From an uncultured Chlorobiota bacterium (GTDB lineage Bacteria; Bacteroidota; Ignavibacteria; UBA10030; UBA6906): 64,000 nt of DNA. The DNA lies in NCBI GenBank assembly GCA_900696645.1, contig CAADGV010000040.1:101848-165847 (forward strand). Reading direction: 5' to 3'. Below, one piece after another: positions 54,916 through 63,470 of the stretch (position 1 is the first letter of the stretch; every line of letters begins with the position of its first letter). The position numbers were made by a program, and so were the translations under genes. Below the pieces are notes generated by a model, which was not told the origin of the DNA, made no database searches, and saw nothing but the letters and a program-made list of their open reading frames with translations.

Positions 54916-56160
54916 TCAAAAATCAAAGTTGAAGCCAAGGGTTGCGTACAAGTAGTACGGGTGTTCCCATTCCCTCGCCTCACGCCACAACACCGCTGAA
55001 TACTTCACTTCGGCGTTCACGTACCGCGGTACAATCTCAGCCCACGCACCGAAGCTCAGCAAGCGCGAGTACTGCATGTTGAGCCGGAACCAATCCGCCC
55101 CGTTGTTCTTGTATTCAAACGCAACGACGGGCGTGACGAAATTCTCGTGATCGTATTTATATATTTCGTTTGCGAGAAATCTGTTCAGCGTTACGCGATG
55201 CCATGTCATGCCTGCCCGCGCTGAGACACACTTCTCTTCGTCGAAACTGTAGTTGAAGGCGTAGTGGAGCTGCAACAGGGCGCTGATCGAGTAGAGTCTC
55301 TCGAGATTGTTTGTGAGATATTCCGGTCTTCGGCGGTCGAGACTGCCAACCGCGAACGAACCGCCGATTCCACCGTACGTGAAGCGGGAGGAACTGATCT
55401 TCACCTCATCCCACTCAAACTCGAATCTCCCCGCAACTCCCGTGCTTCCGTTCAGCAACCTCGGCTTCAAGGAGAGCGGCCGTTCAGCATGATTCGTCTC
55501 AATGAGACCGCCGTGCAGCGGCAAATAGGCGCCGAGTTCAATCGACTTGTATCCCGCCAACATTCTGATTTGTCCCGACGACCAGAATGCGTAGCCCAAT
55601 TCATCTGTGCCGATTCTTCCGGTAATTCTCCAATCATTGCCGAATCGCATCTCTCCGCCGAAGAGTGAGATGTTCATCGAAACCCAATTCGGATTCTCAA
55701 CCGGCAAACGGTTCTGCCGTGCGGCGTTCCGGTATCCGAACGGTGTCTCTTCAACAAGCACATACTCTTTTTTCAGAAGCCTCTTCTGCAATTCCGGGTC
55801 GAGTGACTTTGACGTATACAGCCTCCCGTATGAAGTATTGCCGATGCGGATATCTGCTATTCCTTTCATATTGGGATTAGCGATGACAATGACCTGGTCC
55901 TCTTCCGAGAATTCCTTTCCGCGATTGCGGAATGCCGAATAGATGCTAAGCCTCATGTTTCTGTCAACAACGGCCCACATCGGGAAATACAATGCATACG
56001 TCGTATCGCCGCTGTTGAGCGTTGCAAGAATGCGTTCGAGCGATTTCAGTTCTTCGTTTTCAAATTGCAGTTCCCCGCGCAGTTGCTCGATCTGTGCCGT
56101 TGTCCGACTCATTCCGCACAGCAGCAGCAACACGACGAAGAACAGGATGTTGTGTTTCAT
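54916..56160 (-). CDS. Outer-membrane beta-barrel protein, paralogue B of the motor operon
   Basis: 414 residues from ATG 56160, which has AAAGG 7 bases upstream. Signal peptide MKHNILFFVVLLLLCGMSRTTAQ. A coiled-coil stretch (IEQLRGELQFENEELKSLERILATL) comes first, then a beta-rich N-terminal domain and from about residue 165 barrel strands. FGNDWRITGRIGTDELGYAFW and LSLKPRLLNGSTGVAGRFEFEW are shared with the next protein upstream (see 56172-57605), so the two are paralogues. End FNFDF is typical of barrels. Function unknown; last gene of the GldLM-like operon. Confidence 0.75.
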   Translation of the reverse strand: MKHNILFFVVLLLLCGMSRTTAQIEQLRGELQFENEELKSLERILATLNSGDTTYALYFPMWAVVDRNMRLSIYSAFRNRGKEFSEEDQVIVIANPNMKGIADIRIGNTSYGRLYTSKSLDPELQKRLLKKEYVLVEETPFGYRNAARQNRLPVENPNWVSMNISLFGGEMRFGNDWRITGRIGTDELGYAFWSSGQIRMLAGYKSIELGAYLPLHGGLIETNHAERPLSLKPRLLNGSTGVAGRFEFEWDEVKISSSRFTYGGIGGSFAVGSLDRRRPEYLTNNLERLYSISALLQLHYAFNYSFDEEKCVSARAGMTWHRVTLNRFLANEIYKYDHENFVTPVVAFEYKNNGADWFRLNMQYSRLLSFGAWAEIVPRYVNAEVKYSAVLWREAREWEHPYYLYATLGFNFDF

Positions 56161-56171
56161 TCTATTACCTT

Positions 56172-57605
56172 TCACAAAGTAACTGTGTACGGTATTGTCA
56201 CGATCACGAAATGCGACGGCTCCCAGTCCGCACTCGAGCGGAGAAGCGGCAGCGCGCCCTTCAGTTCCACACGCAGTGTATTATTGATGATCTCCAACCA
56301 GGCGGTGGCAAGCCCCCACTCTTTGTAGTATTGCAGACTTGCACCGAACCTGTTGGAGAATTGCTGATTCATGAATTCGACTTTTAAGTACGGGCTCCAG
56401 AAAAATCTCGTATGGTCTGTTGTCAGAATCCGTGCCTCTTCAGTCCCCATTGCCGGCATCAGTGCATCCTGTGAAATCGAATGCATACCGGCGCCGAATT
56501 TCACGCGCATGAGGTTCGCCTTATTATGGATGTTCAACGTGTACGAATACCACAACAATGCCGATGTCCGGATGGAGTAGATGTGGTTGGGATCGGCGAA
56601 TGTTCCGTCCGTATCGCGACGCCTGCCTCCGAATGTGAATGAACCGCCGACGAATGCGAAATCGAACTCACCTGCTACTCCGTATGTTCCGTCAAGACGT
56701 CGCGGCTTCAATGATGAGCCGAGGAACGATGACGTACCAGTCCCGCCTGCAAAAGGAAGTTGCATCCCAAGCTTGATACGCTTGTACAACGCCATGACCG
56801 CAAGGTTACCGCTCGTCCACATCGGATAGCCCAATTCGTCGTTGCCGAGTTTCACTTCTGCTCCCCAATCATTGCCGAAGCGGATGTTTGCATTGTCGAA
56901 CAGGCGTAGATTCAACACTGTCGGTTCTGTCTGAGGATCATAGCTCAGATTGTAGCGATTGAAGCTGCCGAGAATACTGTCGCTTTCTGTAACGAGCATC
57001 GGCGGAAGGATGTTTTCGATCCTGAAATTCCGGTCAACGAGTTCGCGATCCTGCCCGAACTGACCGCTGGCGACCAGTTTCTGTTTGAGACGAAGCGGCC
57101 TGTTCTCCGGATTCGTAAGCACCTCCCGCAACCGTTTCCCCTGAAGCTCGTTCTCGCCAAAATAGATGGCTACGAGATCGTTATGCGGATGGGGAGTTGC
57201 GATCACCTGAATATCCGATTTCTCAAGAATGATGTTTGAATCCTGCGTTACTCTGAACACGGCGTTGCGCAATACATCCTGGAATTCGAAATCGTTGATG
57301 CGCCACGACCGCAAACCCGAGAAGTTGAATGACGAGCGTTCGAGACCGTCGAGCAAGGCATACAACTGCTCGACACGCTCGCGTACAATCTGCAGCGAAT
57401 CCTGCAACCGCGTCGTAATCGCCCTTTCCGCCAGCAGTGTCGCGGGCGCAATCGTAATCCGTGATGTGTCACGCCCGATATCCATTCCCGACGTTGATGC
57501 ATACTGACCGTACGCTGTTGCGATGAGAATTGCGTACACGAGGGCAATAAACAGCACAACCTCCAGACCGTGAATCAGATCTTGTTTCCATTCGTGATGT
57601 CTCAT
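56172..57605 (-). CDS. Outer-membrane beta-barrel protein, paralogue A of the motor operon
   Basis: 477 residues from ATG 57605 (GAGGATACC just upstream; the frame is open to 57890 but those codons lie within the GldM-like gene and code nothing plausible). A long signal-like segment (VVLFIALVYAILIATAYGQ, about residues 16-34) is followed by a helical stretch (ATLLAERAITTRLQDSLQIVRERVEQL) and then a periplasmic domain (SDIQVIATPHPHNDLVAIYFGE). From about residue 230 barrel strands occur, including FGNDWGAEVKLGNDELGYPMW and SLKPRRLDGTYGVAGEFDF, matching paralogue B. It starts 17 bases after the GldM-like stop. If the segment is not cleaved, it would be tethered to the inner membrane, which is unusual for a barrel. 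Confidence 0.72.
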   Translation of the reverse strand: MRHHEWKQDLIHGLEVVLFIALVYAILIATAYGQYASTSGMDIGRDTSRITIAPATLLAERAITTRLQDSLQIVRERVEQLYALLDGLERSSFNFSGLRSWRINDFEFQDVLRNAVFRVTQDSNIILEKSDIQVIATPHPHNDLVAIYFGENELQGKRLREVLTNPENRPLRLKQKLVASGQFGQDRELVDRNFRIENILPPMLVTESDSILGSFNRYNLSYDPQTEPTVLNLRLFDNANIRFGNDWGAEVKLGNDELGYPMWTSGNLAVMALYKRIKLGMQLPFAGGTGTSSFLGSSLKPRRLDGTYGVAGEFDFAFVGGSFTFGGRRRDTDGTFADPNHIYSIRTSALLWYSYTLNIHNKANLMRVKFGAGMHSISQDALMPAMGTEEARILTTDHTRFFWSPYLKVEFMNQQFSNRFGASLQYYKEWGLATAWLEIINNTLRVELKGALPLLRSSADWEPSHFVIVTIPYTVTL

Positions 57606-57622
57606 GGTATCCTCAACAATCT

Positions 57623-58909
57623 CTAATAAAGAATGGGGAATGTTCTGTCCAATGGAGCCGACACGCCGCCAATGCCGTGAATCGATGTCCGAATGACCAG
57701 TGCCTGCGGACGGGTCGCTGTGACATTCTTGACGGTAAACGTGAACGCCTTGCCGTGGCGTGCGCTCAACACGGCAGTCAAGCCCGACGGCTGAACGAGT
57801 GTGCAATTCACGTTCACATCCTTTCCACCGACATCTTCGGCCGTGAAACTGATGACGTAATCGTCTCCGATCAACCGCGAGCTTGTCCATTTGATCTGCG
57901 GCGGCGGCGGAGCTTTTACGGGAATTTCCGTCCTGATTATCTCATGGCCATTAATCGATGTGGCTACAAAGGTCATGCTCGACCATGTTGGTTGCGGCAT
58001 GACGACAATGGGAAACTGTTTCGTCGCCAGTGACGAAACAGGAGTAGAGCCGTTGGCAAACACGCTCACTGTATAGTCGTTTACGTCAAGCTCACCGACC
58101 CGACTCTGAAACGTGTATGGAATGTTCCAGTATGCCGTCTTCTGTGGTAACGGATTCCACGTCGGCGGCTCAACGTTGACAGCGAACGCGAGCGAAGCGG
58201 CATCAAGCGCGGTAGAGAGATTTCTGCCGGCATTTCCGCTCAACGCAATTTGCAGCGTTCCCGGCATCGGCTTGTCCCAAATAAGCTGAATACTGTTGTC
58301 GCCAACGACTCCACGACGAAAACCGGCGGGCAAACCCGCAAGACTGACTTTGCGCGGATCGGTGTTCACGAACACTGTCTTGATGTAGGGAATTCCTGAA
58401 ACCCACTGCTCTGCTTTCTTGTCAACCCCCATCGAGAATTTTGTTCCCGGGATTTCGCTTTTCTCATTCGAAACGACAATCAACAGCGTTGCAGTATCGG
58501 AGCCGGTACGCACACGCTGCCCGCCTGCACCTTTAGGCAATTGTCGCATCACATTCGCCCACACGCTGAAACGATATTCACCTGGTTTGTCGAACACTCC
58601 GGCAAACTTTGCATTACCGGTTTCACTGTCAATAATAGGTGATATCAGAACCTCGCCGGTCTCCGACTGGGACGTGACAAAGTACTGAATGGTTGACCTT
58701 TCGAGAGAAGATTTGACGTTCGAAACCAGTACTTCAACTGTATCCGAACGGGAAACGACAAACTGCGACACCGACGGAGCGGAAAGCTTGAGCGGCTGCT
58801 CGTAGTCCCTGACAAGACTGTCGAGAGCATAATCCCGTTCCGTGATAATGGAGAGAAGATTGACAATTCCAATCAGATACAACACAAAATAAAATGAGGC
58901 TTTCGGCAT
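57623..58909 (-). CDS. GldM/PorM-like periplasmic motor protein
   Basis: 428 residues. A single N-terminal membrane helix (SFYFVLYLIGIVNLLSI, residues 5-21) precedes beta-sandwich domains rich in short strands over the whole rest, in order: about 35-160, 160-230, 235-335, 335-428, the last starting after APPPPQIKWTSS. GldM of the gliding/type IX secretion machinery has exactly this plan, one helix then four periplasmic domains. Sequence likeness is remote; the R residue near the start of GldM's helix is not conserved. Ribosome site GAGAGG 7 bases before ATG. It follows the GldL-like gene by 13 bases. Confidence 0.55.
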   Translation of the reverse strand: MPKASFYFVLYLIGIVNLLSIITERDYALDSLVRDYEQPLKLSAPSVSQFVVSRSDTVEVLVSNVKSSLERSTIQYFVTSQSETGEVLISPIIDSETGNAKFAGVFDKPGEYRFSVWANVMRQLPKGAGGQRVRTGSDTATLLIVVSNEKSEIPGTKFSMGVDKKAEQWVSGIPYIKTVFVNTDPRKVSLAGLPAGFRRGVVGDNSIQLIWDKPMPGTLQIALSGNAGRNLSTALDAASLAFAVNVEPPTWNPLPQKTAYWNIPYTFQSRVGELDVNDYTVSVFANGSTPVSSLATKQFPIVVMPQPTWSSMTFVATSINGHEIIRTEIPVKAPPPPQIKWTSSRLIGDDYVISFTAEDVGGKDVNVNCTLVQPSGLTAVLSARHGKAFTFTVKNVTATRPQALVIRTSIHGIGGVSAPLDRTFPILY

Positions 58910-58922
58910 CGGGATACCTCTC

Positions 58923-59504
58923 TCACGAAAGCGTTGAACTGTTTTCTACTTGAGGTCTCCGACGAACGAGATGCGCGCTCTTCAGGAAATCAACATTCGC
59001 CTCAATGCGTTCAAGAATATTCTCATCCGCTGCGTGATGTTCGTCGAGTCGCCGGGCAAGCAGTTCGAGAATACTCCGCTGTGATTCGGCAATCGTGTTA
59101 TACTTGTTCCCGATTTGCTCAATAACACGACGTTCGGCCTCGACAAGCGTTTCAATTTTCTTGCCCAGAGCTTCTATCATTTCCCGCTCTGCTTTGAGAA
59201 GCCCCGCAATATCCGGAGACGCAGCAACAGCTTGCACGGCATGTTTCCCTTCAACTGCAACGTCACCCGTAAATCTCGGCCCCTTATAGAACACGTACGC
59301 AAGCGCCATCAGCATAATAAATTCTGCAACCAGTCCGAAGATGACGATGTTAACGGAAATCCTCCCCGTGCTCTCCTCAAGCAGCCAGCCGGGAACAAAC
59401 TGAAGCTGGCTCAAGTCGCCGAGTCCCCGAAGGCCGACGATCACAACAAGAAAACCCGCTCCCGCATACACCAGCGCCTGAATCACGTTGAAATATCTCT
59501 GCAT
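58923..59504 (-). CDS. GldL/PorL-like inner-membrane motor protein
   Basis: 193 residues from ATG 59504, chosen for a GAGGAG site 6 bases upstream (the frame is open to 59555). Two membrane helices, about residues 6-30 (NVIQALVYAGAGFLVVIVGL) and 49-71, the second with Glu 61 in FGLVAEFIMLMALAY. GldL likewise has two helices, a key membrane glutamate in a T-E-x-L-I-F context in helix two, and a long cytoplasmic tail. Here the tail (about 75-193) is helical with heptads (GLLKAEREMIEALGKKIETLVEAERR). With the GldM-like gene this suggests a proton-driven rotary motor. Remote similarity; not proven. Confidence 0.6.
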   Translation of the reverse strand: MQRYFNVIQALVYAGAGFLVVIVGLRGLGDLSQLQFVPGWLLEESTGRISVNIVIFGLVAEFIMLMALAYVFYKGPRFTGDVAVEGKHAVQAVAASPDIAGLLKAEREMIEALGKKIETLVEAERRVIEQIGNKYNTIAESQRSILELLARRLDEHHAADENILERIEANVDFLKSAHLVRRRPQVENSSTLS

Positions 59505-61631: not shown

Positions 61632-63470
61632 TTACTTCAGCAACATCATCCGCTTCGTCTCAGAAAATGTCCCCGCCTGAAGCCGGTAGAAATACATGCC
61701 GCTCGACAGCCGCTCGGCATTGAATGTCGATTCATAACTTCCTGCCGTCAATTGCCCGTCAACCAGCGTTGTCACTTCTCTTCCCAACATGTCAAACACT
61801 TTCAGTGTTGCATGTTCTGGTGCCAGAAGATCGAATCGAATTCTCGTAGAAGGGTTAAACGGATTGGGATAATTCTGTTCGAGTCCCATCGCAACGGGAA
61901 TTTCACCCGGGCGGCGTTCCGGTACAGAAGACGAACCCACCGACGTGACGGTGAAGTGATCAATCCACACATTATCCGAATGCGTGCCGCTCGGTCCGCC
62001 ATTGACGATGTAGTAGTTCACCGCAAAGAAGATGTTCGAGCCGGCAAATTGCGAGAGGGGGAACTTGTATTCGTGCCATGATCGGATCGGGCCATCCACC
62101 TTGAAGTAGCCGATAAGATTGGTGAAGCTTGTACGATTGCTGTCGGTTGTCGAAATCCATACACGCAGCGAGTCTTTAAACTGGCCATCGATTGCTCCGG
62201 CCCAGAAGCTGAGTGTATCACCGACAGCAATATTGTTGATTCTCGGCCCGATCAGCCATTCGTCAATGCGTCCGCTCGCATTGGCACCGTTGTAACTGCC
62301 GAACCAGAAACTTGTGCCGATTTGCGGACGAATTGTGTCGCCGCTCTGAAACACTATTTGTTGGCGAAACGCGAGGGGCGTGCCGCCACCGTCGTTGTCA
62401 ACCACACGCCATCCGGCCGGAACCGTCGTTGACAGGAACCGTTCCTCGAACTTGACTGTGCTTCCGCCGCCACCACCTGTTGTCCATCCCATATCGCGGA
62501 ACATGCCGAGCGTGATCGGGCCCGGAGTGTGAATGGCTTCCGCCGTTCCGATTTCGGGAGTCATGAGAGAATGCTGGTTGCCTGCAGGATACGTTGCCTC
62601 ATCCAAATGGGAATAGCTTGAGCCTTGAATCCAGGAACCAGGGGCGTACAGTCGGGGACGAATGCCTCCGTTCGCTGCAACGGCTTGCGGTCCGTTGAAG
62701 AAGATGTTGTTGCTCTGCAACTGTGTTGCCAGTGCAACAGACGGATTCGGGAAGAGAGTGGTATTGAGCAGCGCCTGCGCTGAATTGTTTTCCGCGTAGC
62801 GATCATAAATGTAGGGGAACGCCGTCCCTCCTCCCCAACTTCCCTGCCCTGATGAAACCGTCATCGAACCGAAGAACGAAAGTCCGTGCCCCAACTCGTG
62901 CAGCACGATCGTCACAAAATCAAACTGACCGGAAGGGGTATTGCCATCCGTTCCGAAATACCAGTTGGGGATTGCGCTGCTGAAGTTTGCGTTGATGTCG
63001 GCGGATGTTGTCGGGTTGAGGTCGGCTCCTGCCAGTTTCTCGGCAACGGCAACCGCATACCATGTTCCCGCTTGCGGCGCGTTCGGAAAATCACGATACA
63101 ACGCGGAGGCACCCGCCGATCCGAGAACGTTCGGAGGTAACGCAGTCCAGTTCGCCGTCACTCTGATCGGGACAGCCGAGGTAAGCAGCGACGCCCAGAT
63201 ATTCACGGCATATTGAAATGCCGCTTGCGCCTGCGGCGTGAAGCCGTTGTAGGTTACAATGAATGTGGCTGTTGCCGGGCGTCCGGTTGATGCCGGAGGT
63301 GGAATGAATGTGTTCATGTCGCGCAGCACTCCCCGCACAACGGTCTGATGTTCCGGCGCAACGGATGCCATCTCCGTAGCCACAATCGGCGAACGGACGG
63401 GCTGCAGGTCCTGAGCAAACGAGATTGCCGTGACAACAGCGGCCAGCAAAACAACGCGCAGTAGCTTCAT
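61632..63470 (-). CDS. Secreted zinc metalloprotease with T9SS sorting tail
   Basis: 612 residues. Signal peptide MKLLRVVLLAAVVTAISFAQ. Catalytic domain with VLHELGHGLSFFG (His 191, Glu 192, His 195), an HExxH zinc site; the metzincin third-His spacing is not seen. A jelly-roll-like domain (about 345-510) follows. The last about 90 residues are a type A T9SS C-terminal sorting domain: LEQNYPNPFNPSTRIRFDLL, LKVFDMLGREVTTLVDG, and the end SSGMYFYRLQ ... KRMMLLK. The protein should cross the outer membrane by the type IX route. Upstream GGGGAG close to the ATG. With the proline peptidase and Hyp cluster it would release peptides outside the cell. Confidence 0.9.
   Translation of the reverse strand: MKLLRVVLLAAVVTAISFAQDLQPVRSPIVATEMASVAPEHQTVVRGVLRDMNTFIPPPASTGRPATATFIVTYNGFTPQAQAAFQYAVNIWASLLTSAVPIRVTANWTALPPNVLGSAGASALYRDFPNAPQAGTWYAVAVAEKLAGADLNPTTSADINANFSSAIPNWYFGTDGNTPSGQFDFVTIVLHELGHGLSFFGSMTVSSGQGSWGGGTAFPYIYDRYAENNSAQALLNTTLFPNPSVALATQLQSNNIFFNGPQAVAANGGIRPRLYAPGSWIQGSSYSHLDEATYPAGNQHSLMTPEIGTAEAIHTPGPITLGMFRDMGWTTGGGGGSTVKFEERFLSTTVPAGWRVVDNDGGGTPLAFRQQIVFQSGDTIRPQIGTSFWFGSYNGANASGRIDEWLIGPRINNIAVGDTLSFWAGAIDGQFKDSLRVWISTTDSNRTSFTNLIGYFKVDGPIRSWHEYKFPLSQFAGSNIFFAVNYYIVNGGPSGTHSDNVWIDHFTVTSVGSSSVPERRPGEIPVAMGLEQNYPNPFNPSTRIRFDLLAPEHATLKVFDMLGREVTTLVDGQLTAGSYESTFNAERLSSGMYFYRLQAGTFSETKRMMLLK

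Follow-up and report, generated by a model that had tools for sequence, protein, structure and literature searches.

A GldLM-like operon with two paralogous outer-membrane barrel proteins in the Ignavibacteria class

GldL and GldM form a proton-driven motor on which both protein export and gliding depend among the Bacteroidota that have been studied. Glu49 of GldL is strictly conserved and is essential for secretion and gliding, and in Flavobacterium gliding is powered by GldLM (PMC8986121). The first domain of GldM (D1) is a five-helix bundle (PMC5790014). A survey of T9SS proteins found SprA, PorV and Plug in Ignavibacterium and Melioribacter, and no other T9SS protein in these organisms (PMC11705866). 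Our search of the open-access literature, subscription papers being outside its scope, found no paper joining GldL, GldM and Ignavibacteria. Here we describe two proteins, L and M, that appear to be a distant, undescribed cousin of the GldL/GldM motor, in a group thought to have the export channel and no motor.

The genes for L, M, A and B form an operon at positions 54916-59504, on the minus strand of the window, by which we mean the whole 64,000-nucleotide stretch of DNA that was analysed. L (58923..59504) encodes a 193-aa membrane protein with two helices and a helical cytoplasmic tail, and M (57623..58909) encodes a 428-aa protein in which a single membrane helix at the N-terminus precedes four Ig-like domains in the periplasm. 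These are followed by A (56172..57605), which encodes a 477-aa outer-membrane barrel protein that has a signal peptide and, in the periplasm, a small alpha/beta domain, and by B (54916..56160), which encodes a 414-aa paralogue of A with a signal peptide, a periplasmic domain and a barrel whose last residue is aromatic. The first-pass annotation of this DNA had described four minus-strand genes with gaps of 11-17 bases; the open reading frames lie where it placed them, and the intergenic gaps are 13, 17 and 11 bases. Both motifs that it had noticed in A and B, FGNDWxxxxxxGxDELGY and SLKPRxLxGxxGVAGxFxF, are real. Relative to a congeneric genome (G096), all four genes showed 85-91% identity and dN/dS values of 0.08-0.11. 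Because such values reflect purifying selection, we conclude that L, M, A and B are real, maintained genes. Pfam and NCBIfam contained no convincing match for any of the four proteins, nor for the L and A/B families, and PDB sequence and profile searches returned helical, coiled-coil or chance matches only, with no convincing solved structure. Near the operon, positions 61632-63470 of the window encode a secreted protein whose C-terminus resembles, by eye, a T9SS sorting domain.

When L was compared with five canonical T9SS profiles, GldL was the best match. This whole-profile comparison alone was only suggestive of kinship (probability 10-27%, with 1 of 60 shuffles as good), and L fell below the cut-off of the curated GldL model, TIGR03513. 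Kinship was instead apparent from the conserved residues. Glu61 of L (codon 59322..59324, minus strand) sits in the second hydrophobic segment, as had been noted previously, and is present in 50 of 50 L homologues. Gly15 is invariant in the same homologues and Ala16 is found in 47. A basic residue lies 11 positions after Gly15, this being Arg26 in L (codon 59427..59429, minus strand); the spacing of 11 is kept in 50/50 homologues, and the residue is Arg or Lys in 49 of them. Counted from the basic residue, the Glu comes 17-20 residues later in 43 homologues and 33-36 later in 7. Canonical GldL proteins from Bacteroidota loci (n = 13) carry Gly16, Ala17, Lys27 and Glu49 at the equivalent positions, with the same step of 11 followed by one of 18-22 to the Glu where measurable, and hhalign paired Glu61 of L with Glu49. 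The frame common to L and GldL is GA-x9-[K/R] and then a Glu in the second transmembrane helix. Written as a regular expression, the combined motif matched 12 of the 13 GldL and 48 of the 50 L sequences. Among about 735 other open reading frames (284,211 aa) it gave a single match, located in the canonical loci and likely a GldL that had been left out of the 13. On the strength of these residues it is well supported that L, a two-helix protein like GldL, is a divergent GldL relative outside the curated family, and the proposal that L is built on the GldL plan was upheld as one of homology.

The membrane helix of M (residues 3-23; 58841..58903, minus strand) contains an invariant Y7-F8-x-x-Y11 and no acidic residue within the membrane. 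A conserved Glu lies shortly past this helix and, together with the Tyr of M, is comparable to Glu31 and Tyr17 of GldM. Of the same five canonical profiles, GldM was the best match for M. The hhalign probability was modest (21-32%); the score of 35.9 compared with a block-shuffle null of 15.1 ± 2.7, and none of 60 shuffles was as good. M fell below the cut-off of the curated GldM model, TIGR03517. Thus, the profile link of the pair to GldL and GldM was borne out in part: M stood above its shuffles and L was suggestive, but both missed the curated cut-offs. Judged from its sequence, M is probably a GldM relative outside the curated family.

The structural model of M (pLDDT 88) consists of an N-terminal helix at residues 3-37 and then four beta domains. 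Generic Ig and cadherin strings filled the results of a fold search with this model, and neither GldM nor PorM was among the matches listed. Because Ig strings dominated, the search argues neither for nor against GldM. M resembles GldM/PorM in having one N-terminal helix, four periplasmic domains and a gene that adjoins and follows that of L. In contrast, domain 1 of M was modelled as beta, whereas GldM has a helical D1 and then three largely beta domains, and the M gene is accompanied by two barrel genes downstream and by neither GldK nor GldN. Since D1 of GldM is a five-helix bundle, M would be a GldM-like axle with a different first domain. Of the GldM plan assigned to M in the first-pass annotation, the single helix, the four periplasmic domains and a probable homology remain; the four beta stretches are not those of GldM, its D1 being helical.

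A and B are homologous and constitute one family, and each has a beta barrel at its C-terminal end. In A, modelled with a pLDDT of 73, an N-terminal helix is followed by a small alpha/beta domain at residues 98-183 (57057..57314, minus strand), which is shared in outline with B, and by a predicted barrel at residues 229-477 (56175..56921, minus strand). In the model, the strand-helix order of residues 98-183 is suggestive of a POTRA domain. The best fold matches to the barrel were FadL/TbuX (Z 13.7), with PorV (6h3i_F) lower at Z 11.3, and a plug domain was absent from the model. It had been suggested that A might span both membranes. This is unsupported because the N-terminal helix of A looks like a signal peptide, and its homologues begin with ordinary signal peptides. 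Comparison of A/B with GldK and GldN by hhalign gave probabilities of about 1% or less. Although the scores against GldN and PorP were slightly above those of shuffles, the probability was about 1% and we do not claim homology to either. PorP/SprF and PorG are also outer-membrane barrels, and in several of the canonical loci gldK has a PorP-like gene upstream of it. However, PorP has no detectable profile similarity to A/B, and A and B are two paralogues that are encoded downstream and that each have an N-terminal periplasmic domain. They would hold the same place between the axle and the outer membrane as the GldK/GldN (PorK/PorN) ring, yet they are barrels.

The operon had been called an orphan, a description that must be given up, as the genome contains three related operons and members of the family are found widely across the class. 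A search with L identified a second full operon in the same genome (locus L005, 4877-9676) whose proteins are 30-45% identical to those described above. A third variant, found via M (locus L041, 5265-10201), has genes for L, for a short M (181 aa), for X, which is a secreted protein of 374 aa, and for two barrels. Given the full second copy and this variant, the set is not unique. The short M and X of the third variant apparently constitute a split axle, X having the look of a periplasmic portion that has come away from M. The M protein of one family (f6; 534 aa) also matched the X profile (8e-8), and alignment of X with M by hhalign was weak.

The four-gene order, whose recurrence had been left as a point to check, does recur in relatives, with variants. 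In nearly every locus that we read, M was followed directly by two paralogous barrels, amounting to about two dozen loci in at least a dozen families. The order is L-M-A-B in the genus of this bacterium, L-M'-L-M-A-B in family f21, M'-L-M-A-B in family f6 and L-shortM-X-A-B in families f1, f13 and f23. M-A-B with L elsewhere was found in eight families (f7, f10, f14, f18, f20, f24, f25 and f27), and at one locus (L040) the barrels are ahead of L-M. Copies of L apart from M also occur, as do L-M' pairs without barrels.

Deep profiles of the L and M families were run against 197 genomes of the Ignavibacteria class. L and M were each detected in 80 genomes, with both in 79, M only in 1, L only in 1 and neither in 116. 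Across 345 genomes sampled from the phylum, the only L-family matches outside this class were four weak ones, and a narrower search with the M alignment found related loci in Ignavibacteriae/Bacteroidetes metagenome genomes. SprA was present in 196 of the 197 class genomes, and the genome studied here has SprA and C25 peptidases. Canonical GldM was found in 0/197 class genomes, in a search in which no positive control registered a match, and no class genome exceeded the curated GldL cut-off among the matches listed. The GldN profile gave short partial matches in 2 of the 197 genomes and none in our genome. Neither GldK nor GldN was labelled alongside L and M in the loci scanned. In agreement with the earlier view of a set without GldK/GldN, the class thus has no convincing GldN, and a separate canonical motor did not appear in the same genome when judged by the curated GldL and GldM models and the GldN profile. 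The suggested connection to the T9SS fits with SprA and C25 in the genome, but it is weaker than had been implied. Since L and M occur in 80 genomes each and SprA in nearly all, the motor is patchy and accessory to the T9SS rather than coextensive with it, and the idea that it serves as the T9SS motor throughout the class was dropped.

By a small margin of belief over doubt, we favor the reading that the operon encodes a GldLM-type, proton-driven inner-membrane motor whose targets are two paralogous outer-membrane barrels in place of a GldK/GldN ring. Several L subunits would assemble into a ring that conducts protons, with Glu61 carrying them, and M would be the axle, with its helix within the L ring, perhaps in a 5:2 assembly. 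The four Ig-like domains of M would span the periplasm and contact the small domains that A and B have there. The motor would most likely move or gate A and B, resulting in export or translocation of surface proteins or adhesins, and its role would be accessory to the T9SS of these cells. The ring-and-axle plan would be held in common with the 5:2 motors MotAB, ExbBD, TolQR and ZorAB. The present pair would differ in that L, the protein with two helices, has the conserved carrier acid, as GldL does, and there is none within the membrane helix of M. More tentatively, and with doubt somewhat outweighing belief, we propose a GldLM-type rotary family, restricted to the Ignavibacteria class in the phylum sample, that drives paired barrels directly with no K/N ring; some lineages would have split the axle into a short M and the secreted X, and extra L copies would work with other partners.

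The operon might instead be the T9SS secretion motor itself, functionally equal to gldKLMN, with A and B doing the job of PorP, PorK and PorN. The class has no canonical GldM and no convincing GldN, while SprA and C25 are nearly everywhere and are neighbors of these genes in some relatives, and only SprA, PorV and Plug are recorded for Ignavibacterium and Melioribacter (PMC11705866), all of which would suit such a motor. However, we consider it unlikely, as 196 of the 197 class genomes have SprA but 116 of the 197 have neither L nor M at a detectable level, the distribution is patchy within families f1, f13 and f23, and one genome carries three such operons. Patchiness is what an accessory trait would produce, and several paralogous motors per genome would likewise be compatible with a motility motor that moves surface adhesins in gliding while the T9SS runs without it. 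Gliding of Flavobacterium is indeed GldLM-powered (PMC8986121), but no adhesin or gliding gene was recognised beside the operon within the window and no record of motility in these lineages came to light, and we judge a motility motor to be improbable. We give very little credence to a TonB/ExbBD-like energiser in which L/M would open A and B as transporters of a hydrophobic or large substrate. FadL/TbuX as the best match to the A barrel is in keeping with transport of this kind, but the model of A has no plug domain, L and M resemble GldLM in the comparison with canonical T9SS profiles, and PorV, which belongs to the T9SS, also figures among the proteins that the barrel matched.

If the more tentative reading of a class-restricted rotary family driving paired barrels is true, a motor would be supplied for a T9SS-bearing clade that was thought to lack one. 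The divergent family allows one to ask what powers export or motility in the class, whether a K/N ring is needed at all, and how new outer-membrane partners come to be recruited by 5:2 motors. The 116 class genomes without detected L, M or canonical GldM, nearly all of which have SprA, raise a more pointed question, namely what drives the T9SS in them.

Inspection of neighboring genes in relatives revealed, in 7 genomes from 5 families (loci L097, L100, L118, L121, L122, L123 and L125; families f10, f17, f18, f20 and f25), a large C25 peptidase (1793-1942 aa) whose immediate neighbor is a solitary L of about 450 aa. We considered whether this C25 protein was PorU and rejected the assignment, since at least two of the genomes (G027 and G037) have a PorU-sized C25 elsewhere, so that the L-adjacent one there is a second C25. 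Proteins with vWA and OmpA domains recur near M-A-B loci in 6 genomes, in several cases directly after B. In a single genome (G194; locus L112, 16-13112), M-A-B is closely preceded by an SprA gene on its upstream side, which is weak evidence because the chance of one such case among 80 genomes is an estimated 0.08 or so.

At two other loci (L101, 6671-12456; L110, 3564-7453), L copies precede a gene whose product has an AAA ATPase domain, and the 1603-aa reading at L101 also has BNR repeats and a weak match to a T9SS tail. In a distant Bacteroidota genome (locus L086, 787-5636), GldL- and GldM-like genes adjoin a gene for a 661-aa protein. The N-terminal region of this protein is of no recognised kind, and its C-terminal half is a strong match to GldK (probability 100%).
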